Source: Gemmatimonadota bacterium (GTDB lineage: Bacteria; Gemmatimonadota; Gemmatimonadetes; Longimicrobiales; Gaopeijiaceae). Taken from it: a DNA stretch of 39,529 bases. The stretch is taken from the NCBI GenBank assembly GCA_022822325.1, contig JAJEBW010000026.1, positions 1 through 39,529 on the forward strand. The letters are read 5' to 3'. Positions 13,881 to 17,748 of the stretch are shown one piece after another. The translations under genes and the position numbers were made by a program. The stretch's first letter is position 1; each line of letters opens with the position of its first letter. The notes under the pieces were generated by a model. It was not told where the DNA came from, did not search any database, and saw only the letters and a program-made list of their open reading frames with translations.

Positions 13881-14444
13881 TCATGGCGCCCCGACCGCAA
13901 TCCCCATCACCTCGAAGCGCGCGCCGAAGAGCAGCGGCCCCGATCCCAGGAAGGCCCGCGCCGGGAACTCGCTCGTGAAGTAGGTGCGGTACACGTCGTT
14001 GAAGGCGCCGTAGTCCCCCACATCCGAAGCGTAGACCTGCACCACCACCAGATCGTCCATCGTCAGCCCGGCGTCCTCCAGGGTGCCGCGAATGTTGTTC
14101 AGCACATTGGTCGCCTCGGCCTCGGCCGTCTCGGGCACCTGTCCGCCCTCCAGCCCCAGCATCCCCGAGAGGTACAGGGTGCTGCCGACCCAGACCGCCC
14201 CGCTGAAGGGCGCCACCTGGTCGCCGTCGGCGGGCGAGCGCGGATTGACGTGCCGGACGGCCATGTGTTCCGCGTGCATCTCGGCGTGCATCTCGCTGTG
14301 CATGGCGTCGTCGTCGTGCATCGCCCCCTCGTGCATCCCGTCGCCGTCGGCGCAGGCGAGCGCCAGACCGAGCATGGGAACGCCGAGCGCGAGGAGCGGT
14401 AGGAGGAAGGCAACCCGGGGGGCGGTTGGCGAAGTCGAAGTCAT
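13881..14444 (-). CDS. RidA/YjgF-family lipoprotein with Met/His-rich linker
   Basis: This encodes 187 aa. A signal peptide ends in L-G-L-A-L-A-C, a lipobox, so the protein should sit in the envelope, unusual for the Rid family whose members normally deaminate reactive enamines in the cytoplasm. Between the lipidated Cys and the Rid domain lies a stretch dense in Met-His pairs and acidic residues (M-H-E-G-A-M-H-D-D-D-A-M-H-S-E-M-H), resembling copper- or silver-binding segments. The Rid domain follows, with L-Y-L-S-G-M-L-G-L, the E-A-T-N-V-L-N-N-I segment, and P-A-R-A-F, which keeps the Arg position used for the substrate carboxylate. The ATG at 14444 has AAGGA eight bases upstream. It is divergent from the first propeller gene across 100 bp. 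Confidence 0.85.
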   Translation of the reverse strand: MTSTSPTAPRVAFLLPLLALGVPMLGLALACADGDGMHEGAMHDDDAMHSEMHAEMHAEHMAVRHVNPRSPADGDQVAPFSGAVWVGSTLYLSGMLGLEGGQVPETAEAEATNVLNNIRGTLEDAGLTMDDLVVVQVYASDVGDYGAFNDVYRTYFTSEFPARAFLGSGPLLFGARFEVMGIAVGAP

Positions 14445-14544
14445 CGGGGCAATCCTTGTGGAGTGGAGAGGAGGGGAGGCGACGGCTGCGCGATCAACGG
14501 AATGGAGATCGAAAGTGCCGAGCATCGAAATGTCGCGAATCCAA

Positions 14545-15939
14545 ATGAACGAAACCCGGGCGGGGAAACAAGCCCGGCGGTTGCGCCCCCGGCGGCCCTA
14601 CCGCGCGACCGGCGCCTGGCTGCTCGGTGCGCCTGCCCCGCGTGCAGCCCGAGGACAACCCCCTCGCGGCATTCGAGCGGCGTTGCATCCACGCTGGATC
14701 GCTGCGTTCTGCGTTGCTTCTTCCCCCGGGCTGCTGGCCGCCTGCGGCGACAACGCGGAACCGCCCCCCAACCCCGCCCAGGTCACCGACTCGGCCGGAA
14801 TCGCGATCGTCACCAGCGCCCCGGCCAACGCCGTCTACGCCACCGTCGCCCCGGAACCGGTCCTCTCGATCGGCGTCCTCGAAGGCCCGGACGAACTCAT
14901 GTTCGGGCAAGTCGCCTCGGTCGCGCTCGACGGCGCCGGCAACGTCGTCGTCGCCGACCTCCAGAGCAACGAGATTCGCGTCTTCGGCCCGGAGGGCGCC
15001 CACCTTCGCACCCTGGGCGGCGCCGGCGAGGGTCCCGGCGAGTTCGAGCGTCTCAACGGCGCCTGGCCCATCCCCGGCGGCACGATCGTCGCGGTGGACA
15101 ATCGCGTCGGCCGCATCACCCGCTTCGGCCCGGACGGCGAGCTGCTGGGCGCGGAAGCCTTCCAAGGAACGGGCCTGGTCGGGCCGATTGGGCTCGCGGG
15201 ATCGAATGCCGTTCTCAGCCGGGTGCGCTCGCTGCCCTCTCCCAGAGGCGCGGTCACGGCGAGCGGCGGCCTGGATCTGTCCGCGATGACCGCCGCGCTG
15301 GAGGGCGGCACCGAGTTCCTTCTCCGCCACGGCCTCGACGGCGTCCTCATCGACACGGTGGCCACCCTGTCCGCCGCGGTCACCCAAATGACGGCCTCCG
15401 GCAGCGGCGAAGATCTGTCGATTCAGCTCATGCGGGTGCCCTTTTCCCCCAACCCCTACGCCGCCTCCTCCACCGCGGGCCGGATCGCCGTGACCGCGGG
15501 CGACTCCTACGAGATCCTGCTCTACGGCCCCGACGGCGCGCTGGAGCGGATCGTGCGTCTGGCCGAAGAGCCGCCGCTGCGCACCGAAGCCCATCTCGAA
15601 GCCTGGGTGCGCGCCTCCGTCACGGGCGGCCACTGGGACGACGCCGAGTTGCGGGCGACGATGCGGAGCTACGAGGAGATGCCGATGCCCGACCGGCTTC
15701 CCGCCTGGGACGGGCTCCTCATCGCCGACAATGGCGAGATCTGGGCCCGCCGCTACTCGATTCGGGGCGCGGATACGATCGTGCGCGACGTCTTCAGCGC
15801 CGAGGGCGGTCACCTCGGAACGGTCACGACCCCCGCAAACCTTGGACGGTATCTTGAGCAGGTCGTGGACGGCCGCCTGGTCGTCATCGCCACCGACGAC
15901 CTCGGCGTCGAGCGCGTTCAGATCCACGAACTCCACTGA
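14545..15939 (+). CDS. Six-bladed beta-propeller lipoprotein (copy A)
   Basis: This encodes 464 aa. The mature part begins after a lipobox (L-L-A-A-C-G-D-N) and contains NHL-like blades: D-G-A-G-N-V-V-V-A-D-L-Q-S-N-E-I-R-V-F-G-P-E-G, then G-E-G-P-G-E-F and R-I-T-R-F-G-P-D-G. Such exported propellers are common in Gemmatimonadota; no function is assigned. The start is hard to fix: the ATG at 14545 is aligned with copy B's ATG but gives about 65 Arg-rich residues before the lipobox. An in-frame TTG near 14684 would give a normal short signal peptide, but in copy B the same codon is CTG. Copy A is a tandem paralogue of the next gene, and both 5' ends share a nearly identical 178-bp block. Confidence 0.82.
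   Translation: MNETRAGKQARRLRPRRPYRATGAWLLGAPAPRAARGQPPRGIRAALHPRWIAAFCVASSPGLLAACGDNAEPPPNPAQVTDSAGIAIVTSAPANAVYATVAPEPVLSIGVLEGPDELMFGQVASVALDGAGNVVVADLQSNEIRVFGPEGAHLRTLGGAGEGPGEFERLNGAWPIPGGTIVAVDNRVGRITRFGPDGELLGAEAFQGTGLVGPIGLAGSNAVLSRVRSLPSPRGAVTASGGLDLSAMTAALEGGTEFLLRHGLDGVLIDTVATLSAAVTQMTASGSGEDLSIQLMRVPFSPNPYAASSTAGRIAVTAGDSYEILLYGPDGALERIVRLAEEPPLRTEAHLEAWVRASVTGGHWDDAELRATMRSYEEMPMPDRLPAWDGLLIADNGEIWARRYSIRGADTIVRDVFSAEGGHLGTVTTPANLGRYLEQVVDGRLVVIATDDLGVERVQIHELH
14583..14760 (+). repeat. Near-identical 178-bp block, copy A (partner at 16021-16198)
   Basis: Aligned without gaps to 16021-16198 (offset 1438), this block differs at only six positions by my count, about 97% identity. 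The downstream mature coding regions diverge clearly more and contain indels. It covers the Arg-rich N-terminal codons and the signal peptide of the propellers. The uneven identity points to recent gene conversion or to selection on the DNA or RNA itself. Confidence 0.8.
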
Positions 15940-15958
15940 GATCCACGAACTTCACTGA
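15921..15958 (+). repeat. 19-bp tandem duplication spanning propeller A stop codon
   Basis: Two adjacent copies of a 19-bp unit (15921-15939 and 15940-15958) with one mismatch. The first contains the last codons and TGA of copy A; the second adds a further TGA out of the original frame. It looks like a replication-slippage duplication. Confidence 0.85.
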
Positions 15959-15994
15959 GCCGCCCATTCCTGGCACAACGAGGGAGCGACCGAC

Positions 15995-17371
15995 ATGAAC
16001 AGGAAACGAGCCCGGCCACTGCGCCCCCGGCGGCCCTACCGCGCGACCGGCGCCTGGCTGCTCGGTGCGCTTGCACCGCGTGCAGCCCGAGGACAACCCC
16101 CTCGCGGCATTCGAGCGGCGCTGCATCCACGCTGGATCGCTGCGCTCTGCGTTGCTTCTTGCACCGGGCTGCTGGCCGCCTGCGGCGACAACGCGGAACT
16201 GCCCCCCAACCCCACCCAAATGACCGACTCGGCCGGAATCGAGATCGTGACCAGCGCCCCGATCGACGCCGTCTACGCCACCGTGGCCCCGGAACCGGTC
16301 CTCTCGATCGGCGTCCTGAACGGCCCCGACGAGCTCATGTTCGGGCGGATCGCCACGGTCGCGCTCGACGGCGCCGGCAATGTCATCGTCGCCGACCGCC
16401 AGAGCAACGAGATTCGCGTCTTCGGCCCGGAGGGCGCCCACCTTCACACCCTGGGCGGCGTCGGCGAGGGTCCCGGCGAGTTCGAGCAGTTGGAGGGCGC
16501 GTGGCCCACCCCCGGCGGCACCATCGTGGCCGTGGACAACCAGGCCGGCCGCATCACCCGCTTTGGCCCCGACGGCGAGCTGCTGGGCGCGGAAGCCTTC
16601 ATGGACGCAGGGCTGTTTCGTTCCATCGGCCTCGCGGGGCCCGACGCAGTCCTGACCCAGGGCCGGTCCTTCAGCCCCCCAACGCCGGGCACCAGCGTCG
16701 AAGAGTTCATGAGCTCGATCATGGGCGGCGGACCCGAGCACATCCTCCGGCACAGCCTGTCCGGTGAACTGATCGACACGGTCGCGACCGTCTCGGAGCC
16801 GGTCACCCAGGTGTCCAGCCGGGGCAGCGGCAACGACGTGTCGATTGCAATCATGGCGGTTCCCTTCTCGCCCGAACCCGCCGCCATCGCCGCCGCCGAC
16901 GGGAGAGTCGCCGTCACCGAAGGGCGCCGCTACGAGTTCCGCATCCACGACCCCTCCGGCGCGCTGGCGCGAATCGTTCGCCTCGACGAAGAGCCGACCC
17001 CGCGCACCGACGCCCACCTGGAGGCCTGGGTGCGCGGCCGGATCGCCACCAACGGCGAACCGATCGACGAAAACGTGGTGCGGGCGGCGATGGGGCGCTA
17101 CGGGGCGATGGATCTGCCCGATCGCCTGCCCGCCTGGAGTCACCTCTTCTTTGCCGACGATGGCGAAATCTGGGCGTTGCGCTTCATGATACGGGGCGCG
17201 GACTTCCGCCGCTGGGACGTCTTCGGCGCCGACGGGGGCCACCGCGGCCAGGTGACGGTGCCGTCGAACCTCTTTATTCAGCAGATTGGAGGGGGCCGCC
17301 TGGTCGTCGGGGCCTCCGACGAGCTGGGCGTGCACCGCGCGCAACTCTACGAACTGGACCGAAACCCATGA
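15995..17371 (+). CDS. Six-bladed beta-propeller lipoprotein (copy B)
   Basis: This encodes 458 aa and is a tandem paralogue of copy A. Both share the N-terminal R-P-R-R-P-Y-R-A-T-G-A-W-L-L-G-A block, the lipobox T-G-L-L-A-A-C-G-D-N and the blade motifs D-G-A-G-N-V-I-V-A-D-R-Q-S-N-E-I-R-V-F-G and G-V-G-E-G-P-G-E-F. The central third (from about residue 215) is much more diverged, which suggests different ligands. ATG at 15995 has GAGGGAG eight bases upstream. Its stop overlaps the start of the putative selenoprotein gene as ATGA, so the two are probably translated together. An envelope role is expected; partner and ligand are unknown. Confidence 0.85.
   Translation: MNRKRARPLRPRRPYRATGAWLLGALAPRAARGQPPRGIRAALHPRWIAALCVASCTGLLAACGDNAELPPNPTQMTDSAGIEIVTSAPIDAVYATVAPEPVLSIGVLNGPDELMFGRIATVALDGAGNVIVADRQSNEIRVFGPEGAHLHTLGGVGEGPGEFEQLEGAWPTPGGTIVAVDNQAGRITRFGPDGELLGAEAFMDAGLFRSIGLAGPDAVLTQGRSFSPPTPGTSVEEFMSSIMGGGPEHILRHSLSGELIDTVATVSEPVTQVSSRGSGNDVSIAIMAVPFSPEPAAIAAADGRVAVTEGRRYEFRIHDPSGALARIVRLDEEPTPRTDAHLEAWVRGRIATNGEPIDENVVRAAMGRYGAMDLPDRLPAWSHLFFADDGEIWALRFMIRGADFRRWDVFGADGGHRGQVTVPSNLFIQQIGGGRLVVGASDELGVHRAQLYELDRNP
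16021..16198 (+). repeat. Near-identical 178-bp block, copy B (partner at 14583-14760)
   Basis: This is the second copy of the 5' block shared by the two propeller genes; see the copy at 14583-14760 for the comparison. The six differences change few residues. Confidence 0.8.
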
Positions 17372-17748
17372 GCGACAATCCCGCCCCGAACCTCGAATGG
17401 CGCTACCACCGCCCCGGCTGAACCGGTTGCAAGCGAACGCAGGAGTTTCTTGCGCAGAATGGAGTGGAGGACGCCGCCGAGATCCGCAACGCCACCCGCG
17501 ACCCGGTGCTGGCCGCCGACGTGCCGCCCCTCCTCGAGGGAGCGAGCGAGCTGTGCGTGGCGCGCGGCAAGAAGATCGTGCGGGTCGATCTGACCGGCCC
17601 CGACCGTCCCGGCGACGACGAGCTCGTGGCCATGGTGACCAGCCGTTGGGGAAAGCTGCGGGCGCCCACGTTGCGGGTGGGGACCACCCTGTCGGTCGGC
17701 TTCAACCGGGAGATGCTGGAATCGGTCTTCGGGGTGGGGCAATCATGA
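17368..17748 (+). CDS. Putative selenoprotein: ArsC/glutaredoxin-like thioredoxin-fold protein with in-frame UGA (UxxC)
   Basis: Reading through one TGA (17419-17421) gives a continuous 126-residue frame from ATG 17368 to TGA 17746. Residues 10-30 read E-W-R-Y-H-R-P-G-U-T-G-C-K-R-T-Q-E-F-L, so the UGA sits exactly at the first Cys position of a C-x-x-C redox motif (Sec18/Cys21). A thioredoxin-like cis-Pro segment follows at residues 99-105 (A-P-T-L-R-V-G), then L-S-V-G-F-N. The part after the UGA has no other stop and keeps family-like sequence. From recall, ArsC-family (seleno)proteins with this layout exist in other bacteria. A hairpin with GG in its loop lies 8-32 bases after the UGA, as a bacterial SECIS should. 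The ATG overlaps copy B's stop (ATGA). If UGA is not decoded, translation would yield only a 17-residue peptide. A Cys-to-stop mutation is the alternative reading. Confidence 0.75.
17429..17453 (+). promoter_or_regulatory. Candidate bacterial SECIS hairpin
   Basis: Just downstream of the in-frame TGA, GCAAG (17429-17433) pairs with CTTGC (17449-17453). One bulged C follows, then GAA pairs with TTT (one wobble), closing a loop of eight bases (CGCAGGAG). The loop GG lies 21-22 bases after the UGA, close to its place in the E. coli fdhF element. The lower stem is short, so support is moderate. Confidence 0.55.

Follow-up and report, generated by a model that had tools for sequence, protein, structure and literature searches.

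A predicted selenoprotein of the NF041106 family, with a covarying hairpin after its in-frame TGA, in a Gemmatimonadota genome

A reading frame with one inner TGA

The window analyzed here is a stretch of 39,529 nucleotides (nt) from a Gemmatimonadota bacterium (contig JAJEBW010000026.1 of assembly GCA_022822325.1), and the gene under study lies at 17368..17748 on its plus strand. An earlier, sequence-only reading had reported a lone TGA in a 127-codon frame at this site, opening a U-T-G-C motif, and both the coordinates and that reading are confirmed: the frame is open but for one TGA at residue 18 and translates as MSDNPAPNLEWRYHRPG*TGCKRTQEFLAQ...LRAPTLRVGTTLSVGFNREMLESVFGVGQS*, with this single inner TGA. 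We assign the gene to the ArsC family (seleno)proteins of NF041106, with a predicted product of 126 residues, including selenocysteine (Sec) at position 18, followed by the stop. The TGA itself (17419..17421, plus strand) is the predicted Sec codon and opens U-T-G-C at residues 18-21, and Cys21 (17428..17430, plus strand) is its predicted resolving partner, occupying an invariant column in an alignment of 17 sequences (A2). Ahead of the TGA, W11, Y13, R15, and G17 are invariant in 17/17 aligned sequences. Downstream, the predicted cis-proline of a thioredoxin fold lies in an L-R-A-P segment (17656..17667, plus strand) in which L97, R98, A99, and P100 are invariant in A2, and a pattern count recovered RAP[TAS] in 54/54 sequences. 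The ATG and the stop codon of the gene upstream (TGA) overlap in ATGA (17368-17371), and translational coupling with that gene is therefore likely.

Selenocysteine machinery and conservation of the TGA

The genome to which the window belongs (3,484,285 bases, 49 contigs, 94.13% complete) encodes its own Sec-decoding trait. A check for sel genes, proposed by the sequence-only reading, found selA (contig C47; 474.1 bits, cutoff 267.9), selB (C28; 289.5 bits, cutoff 242.25), selD (C16; 374.2 bits, cutoff 125), and tRNA-Sec (C28; 79.7 bits, gathering threshold 47), all four above their cutoffs; ARAGORN likewise called the last as tRNA-SeC with anticodon tca (UCA). The selD gene (C16:100925-101845, minus strand) contains one inner TGA, within LSHGAGUACKLG. 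UxxK is the motif given for selenophosphate synthetase in Table 1 of PMC13188914, and GAGUACK fits it, so selD adds another predicted selenoprotein gene to the genome.

Conservation of the TGA was followed in at least 23 relatives from a contig scan and in a survey of 298 genomes of the phylum, with some genomes common to both sets. The Sec-codon TGA is present in 23/23 relatives among the matches listed, 20 of which are titled Gemmatimonadota, Gemmatimonadetes, Gemmatimonadales, or Longimicrobiales and three, one each, Gammaproteobacteria, Actinomycetota, and Melainabacteria. NF041106 matched at an expect value (E) of ≤0.001 in 84/298 phylum genomes and scored above its cutoff in 54; every one of these 54/54 Gemmatimonadota matches contains exactly one inner TGA. 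Across the 84 matching genomes, 71 have a TGA-bearing match and 13 have only TGA-free matches, all at ≤38.9 bits. The selA profile was matched in 226/298 genomes (220 above its cutoff), among them 70/71 genomes with a TGA-bearing match and 1/13 of those with only weak TGA-free matches (one-sided Fisher test of TGA-bearing match against selA over all 298 genomes, 3.8e-9, uncorrected for relatedness). The lone selA-less genome with a TGA match is G211, an assembly of 830 contigs with 88% completeness, in which the match spans 37 profile positions.

Two further groups of matches fall below the cutoff of 85 bits. Twelve genomes of family f7, genus g63 (G042, G046, G054, G056, G060, G072, G149, G163, G200, G209, G259, and G292), carry TGA-bearing matches at 64.3-74.3 bits, which likely represent a divergent selenoprotein subfamily missed by the curated NF041106 model. 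Weak TGA-bearing matches in G085, G182, and G280 (20.9-22.5 bits) may belong to another thioredoxin-fold selenoprotein.

A covarying hairpin after the TGA

A predicted selenocysteine insertion sequence (SECIS) hairpin lies at 17438..17454 on the plus strand, bases 17-33 after the TGA, and can be drawn with a stem of 7 base pairs (bp) and a G-U-U loop or with 6 bp and A-G-U-U-U. According to Fig. 2 of PMC13188914, the bacterial SECIS model has an apical loop of 3-9 nt with G in the first two positions, an upper stem of 4-16 bp at 16-37 nt from the UGA, and a minimum free energy of ≤-7.5 kcal/mol. The loop GUU (or AGUUU), the stem of 7 (or 6) bp, and the 22-23 nt between agree with this model. 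The hairpin was compared over the window and 53 other loci; a pattern located 50 of these sequences, and a less strict one the remaining 4, which read U-I-T-C. In alignment A1, which holds the 39 distinct sequences among the 50 (hairpin in columns 20-36), 94.1% of 273 cells are paired compared to 86.3% in shuffles, and 17 cells are doubly changed compared to a shuffled mean of 3.7; for neither measure did any of 500 shuffles reach as high. Registers slid along A1 pair in 30.4-69.2%. Position 21-35 is GC in 26 sequences, UA in 8, CG in 4, and other in 1, and position 23-33 is AU in 30, GC in 5, and other in 4. Whole arms are exchanged in a coordinated manner (CGCAAG..CUUGCG, CUCGAG..CUCGAG, CUCAAG..CUUGAG and, shifted by one, CCCAGG..CCUGGG), exchanges that in part alter the protein. 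Such covariation of the two arms is what a bacterial SECIS element would be expected to show.

Codon use within the hairpin is narrow. This was measured on the 39 distinct of 45 sequences, leaving out L039, L040, L046, L048, and L058. Glu is GAG in 39/39, Phe is TTT in 38/39, and Leu is CTT in 33 or CTC in 6; three genes of the window write Phe as TTC 79 times and as TTT 18 times. For pairs of sequences with the same residue, the fraction sharing a codon at codons +6 to +12 after the TGA is 0.64, 0.49, 1.00, 0.95, 0.73, 0.88, and 1.00, and in the conserved C-terminal block it is 0.22-0.76 (34/39 sequences).

Several observations weigh against the Sec reading or its hairpin. Double-change pairs and further pair types were no more numerous than in shuffles (262/500 and 433/500, respectively), and in L039, L046, L048, and L058 the pairing register is offset by one. 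Codons outside the hairpin are also narrow, with same-codon fractions of 0.85, 0.76, and 0.85 at -4, -3, and -1 and of 0.90 at the Cys codon. The hairpin by itself reaches -7.1 kcal/mol, just short of the model's -7.5; the 42 bases after the window's TGA reach -10.4 kcal/mol, but their minimum-energy fold is another one, and the hairpin pairs have a probability of only 0.11-0.20. A 61-base stretch folded no better than shuffles (z = 0.45), and an Rfam search of the window at gathering thresholds returned nothing. Because single-sequence folding of the window gives no support, the SECIS assignment rests on the evolutionary evidence. At the level of the phylum, 156/226 selA genomes, including G174 from the window's own genus, carry no TGA-bearing match, and the protein is therefore dispensable or replaced in many. 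Gene neighbors at the 53 loci gave no functional clue.

Family membership and proposed function

The protein matches NF041106 (ArsC_rel_Se_1) at 96 bits (cutoff, 85) and at 88.7 bits in the genome search, where it is the only locus of the family and contains one TGA. Its U-T-G-C, with Sec predicted from the TGA, is the UxxC motif of NF041106, and with the profile score above cutoff we find no essential difference from that family: the gene is an additional member, from Gemmatimonadota, of a selenoprotein family already catalogued. In Table 1 of PMC13188914, a 2026 review, the arsenate reductase-like UxxC family is given as "Predicted with high confidence." The window supplies that family with a well-supported member whose hairpin covaries inside the coding region. 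Two earlier reports appear to describe similar proteins, the likeness in each case being one of description and not of sequence comparison: Arsenate reductase 2 (cd03032, UxxC) in the Global Ocean Sampling selenoproteome (PMC2398784), alike as a UxxC protein of the ArsC superfamily, and the ArsC-like selenoprotein family of Desulfotalea psychrophila and others tabulated in PMC1794560.

We put at roughly 0.93 the probability that this NF041106 member has its UGA read as Sec by the genome's own SelA, SelB, SelD, and tRNA-Sec, yielding a small thioredoxin-fold redox protein with a Sec18-Cys21 pair. An AlphaFold2 model (mean predicted local distance difference test [pLDDT], 91.2; predicted template modeling score [pTM], 0.85) predicts a thioredoxin-type fold, and the most likely function is predicted to be that of a Sec-Cys thiol-disulfide oxidoreductase. 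In such a scheme, SelB would bind the hairpin and deliver Sec-tRNA to the UGA. Sec18 could then attack a disulfide or other oxidized substrate, Cys21 would resolve the resulting bond, and recycling of the protein may fall to a cellular thiol system. Cys forms also exist, as database proteins P0005 and P0074 carry Cys at the Sec site (seen in protein sequences only).

Alternative readings of the gene

By profile, the nearest solved structures are Spx regulators, not arsenate reductases. This qualifies the sequence-only claim of an ArsC/glutaredoxin-like U-x-x-C selenoprotein, in which the selenoprotein part is upheld by the sel genes, the conservation of the TGA, and the covarying hairpin. The domain cd03032 is, we presume, the Spx subfamily. 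Like Spx of Bacillus subtilis and kin, the window protein has the CxxC position, an equivalent of Gly52, and a VG[FY]N tail; Gly58 aligns with Spx Gly52, a contact residue for the C-terminal domain of the RNA polymerase alpha subunit (alpha-CTD), and is Gly in 15/17 rows of A2. It differs in the predicted Sec that replaces the first Cys, in RAP[TAS] (54/54) where Spx has RPI, in being shorter before Gly52, and in scores under the curated cutoffs (Spx/MgsR TIGR01617, 21.2 bits compared to 75.05; Spx NF002459, 19.4 compared to 123). That the gene encodes a Sec version of an Spx/MgsR-type regulator, with Sec18-Cys21 as a redox switch on a protein binding the alpha-CTD, is unlikely. It is similarly doubtful that, in a Gemmatimonadota protein of Spx ancestry with Sec in place of the sensing Cys, peroxide or disulfide stress would steer transcription via a selenenylsulfide acting on RNA polymerase. 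A literature search found no paper combining selenoprotein, selenocysteine, Spx, and RNA polymerase, and the Spx-like reading, if true, would amount to a selenium-based transcription switch. We consider a Sec-dependent arsenate reductase very unlikely. The family name, an E value of 0.001 to Pfam ArsC, and fold matches that include arsenate reductase structures are what speak for it, but the score to PF03960 is 19.8 bits, under the gathering cutoff of 24, TIGR00014 matches only 1/17 members (E = 2.4e-4), and none of the ten window reading frames scanned, out of a larger number, is an arsenic gene. The Sec-containing arsenate reductase (TIGR00014) has UxxS in Table 1 of PMC13188914, whereas the window protein has UxxC. 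Compared with glutaredoxin-type ArsC arsenate reductases, the protein shares the ArsC-superfamily fold but does not reach the family cutoffs, and membership was rejected on these scores. Plain glutaredoxin was rejected as well (PF00462, 19.1 bits; gathering cutoff, 22.9).

Alternatively, the TGA could end translation or have arisen in sequence assembly, which would make the frame a pseudogene or place the real start at a GTG further on (94 amino acids [aa]). The protein database seems to favor a downstream start, given that 68/76 matches are downstream pieces of 75-94 aa covering 49-75% of the query, but such pieces are also expected if gene callers start after the TGA. A downstream start would strip the protein of its first strand and of U-x-x-C, the TGA is kept in the 23/23 relatives among the matches listed and in the 54/54 phylum matches, and the four residues ahead of it are invariant in 17/17. 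A stop, pseudogene, or sequencing error is therefore extremely unlikely, and we rejected it on the conserved TGA and both of its flanks. The short matches fit the sequence-only expectation that gene callers cut selenoproteins at the UGA or start them late; since 68/76 database proteins lack the N-terminal active-site part, annotation of this family is often wrong. Three database proteins (P0008, P0010, and P0040) have Trp at the Sec position, which may reflect TGA read as Trp by gene calling with code 4. A genome-wide reading of TGA as Trp was set aside, as the upstream gene of the window ends in TGA and the three Trp residues are put down to code 4.

The sequence-only reading had further described this lineage as one in which Sec use is little documented. 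That holds insofar as no paper devoted to Gemmatimonadota selenoproteins was found among the literature matches listed, but the selA profile is matched in 226/298 phylum genomes, and PMC5649159 reports that SelA and SelB co-occur in most sponge-symbiont bins, of various phyla.

Gene neighborhood

The upstream gene (15995..17371, plus strand) encodes a 6-bladed beta-propeller (DUF5128/NHL) with no part in the Sec mechanism, matching PF17170 at 23.5 bits (cutoff, 22.9) and PF01436 at 20.8 bits (cutoff, 20). It is the second of two adjoining 6-bladed beta-propeller-like genes at 14083-17371, the first scoring 20.3 bits, under the DUF5128 cutoff of 22.9, and tandem sets of two or three beta-propeller genes occur in some near relatives. 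Among the 53 loci, 30 of which extend only about 1.5 kb per side, strong matches to the beta-propeller neighbor were found at 15 and a weak one at L056. In the 25 largest neighbor clusters, the sharing of other recurring frames did not reach beyond near relatives or L029-L033, save for one large minus-strand cluster that is probably antisense noise of GC-rich DNA. A conserved neighborhood was therefore rejected as a guide to function, with the beta-propeller at few loci and the rest confined to near relatives. Locus L031 (JAPPJO010000088.1), titled Gammaproteobacteria, has eight recurring neighbor frames (overlapping frames counted) in common with the Gemmatimonadetes loci L029, L030, L032, and L033, and this record is therefore probably mislabeled or a mixed bin.
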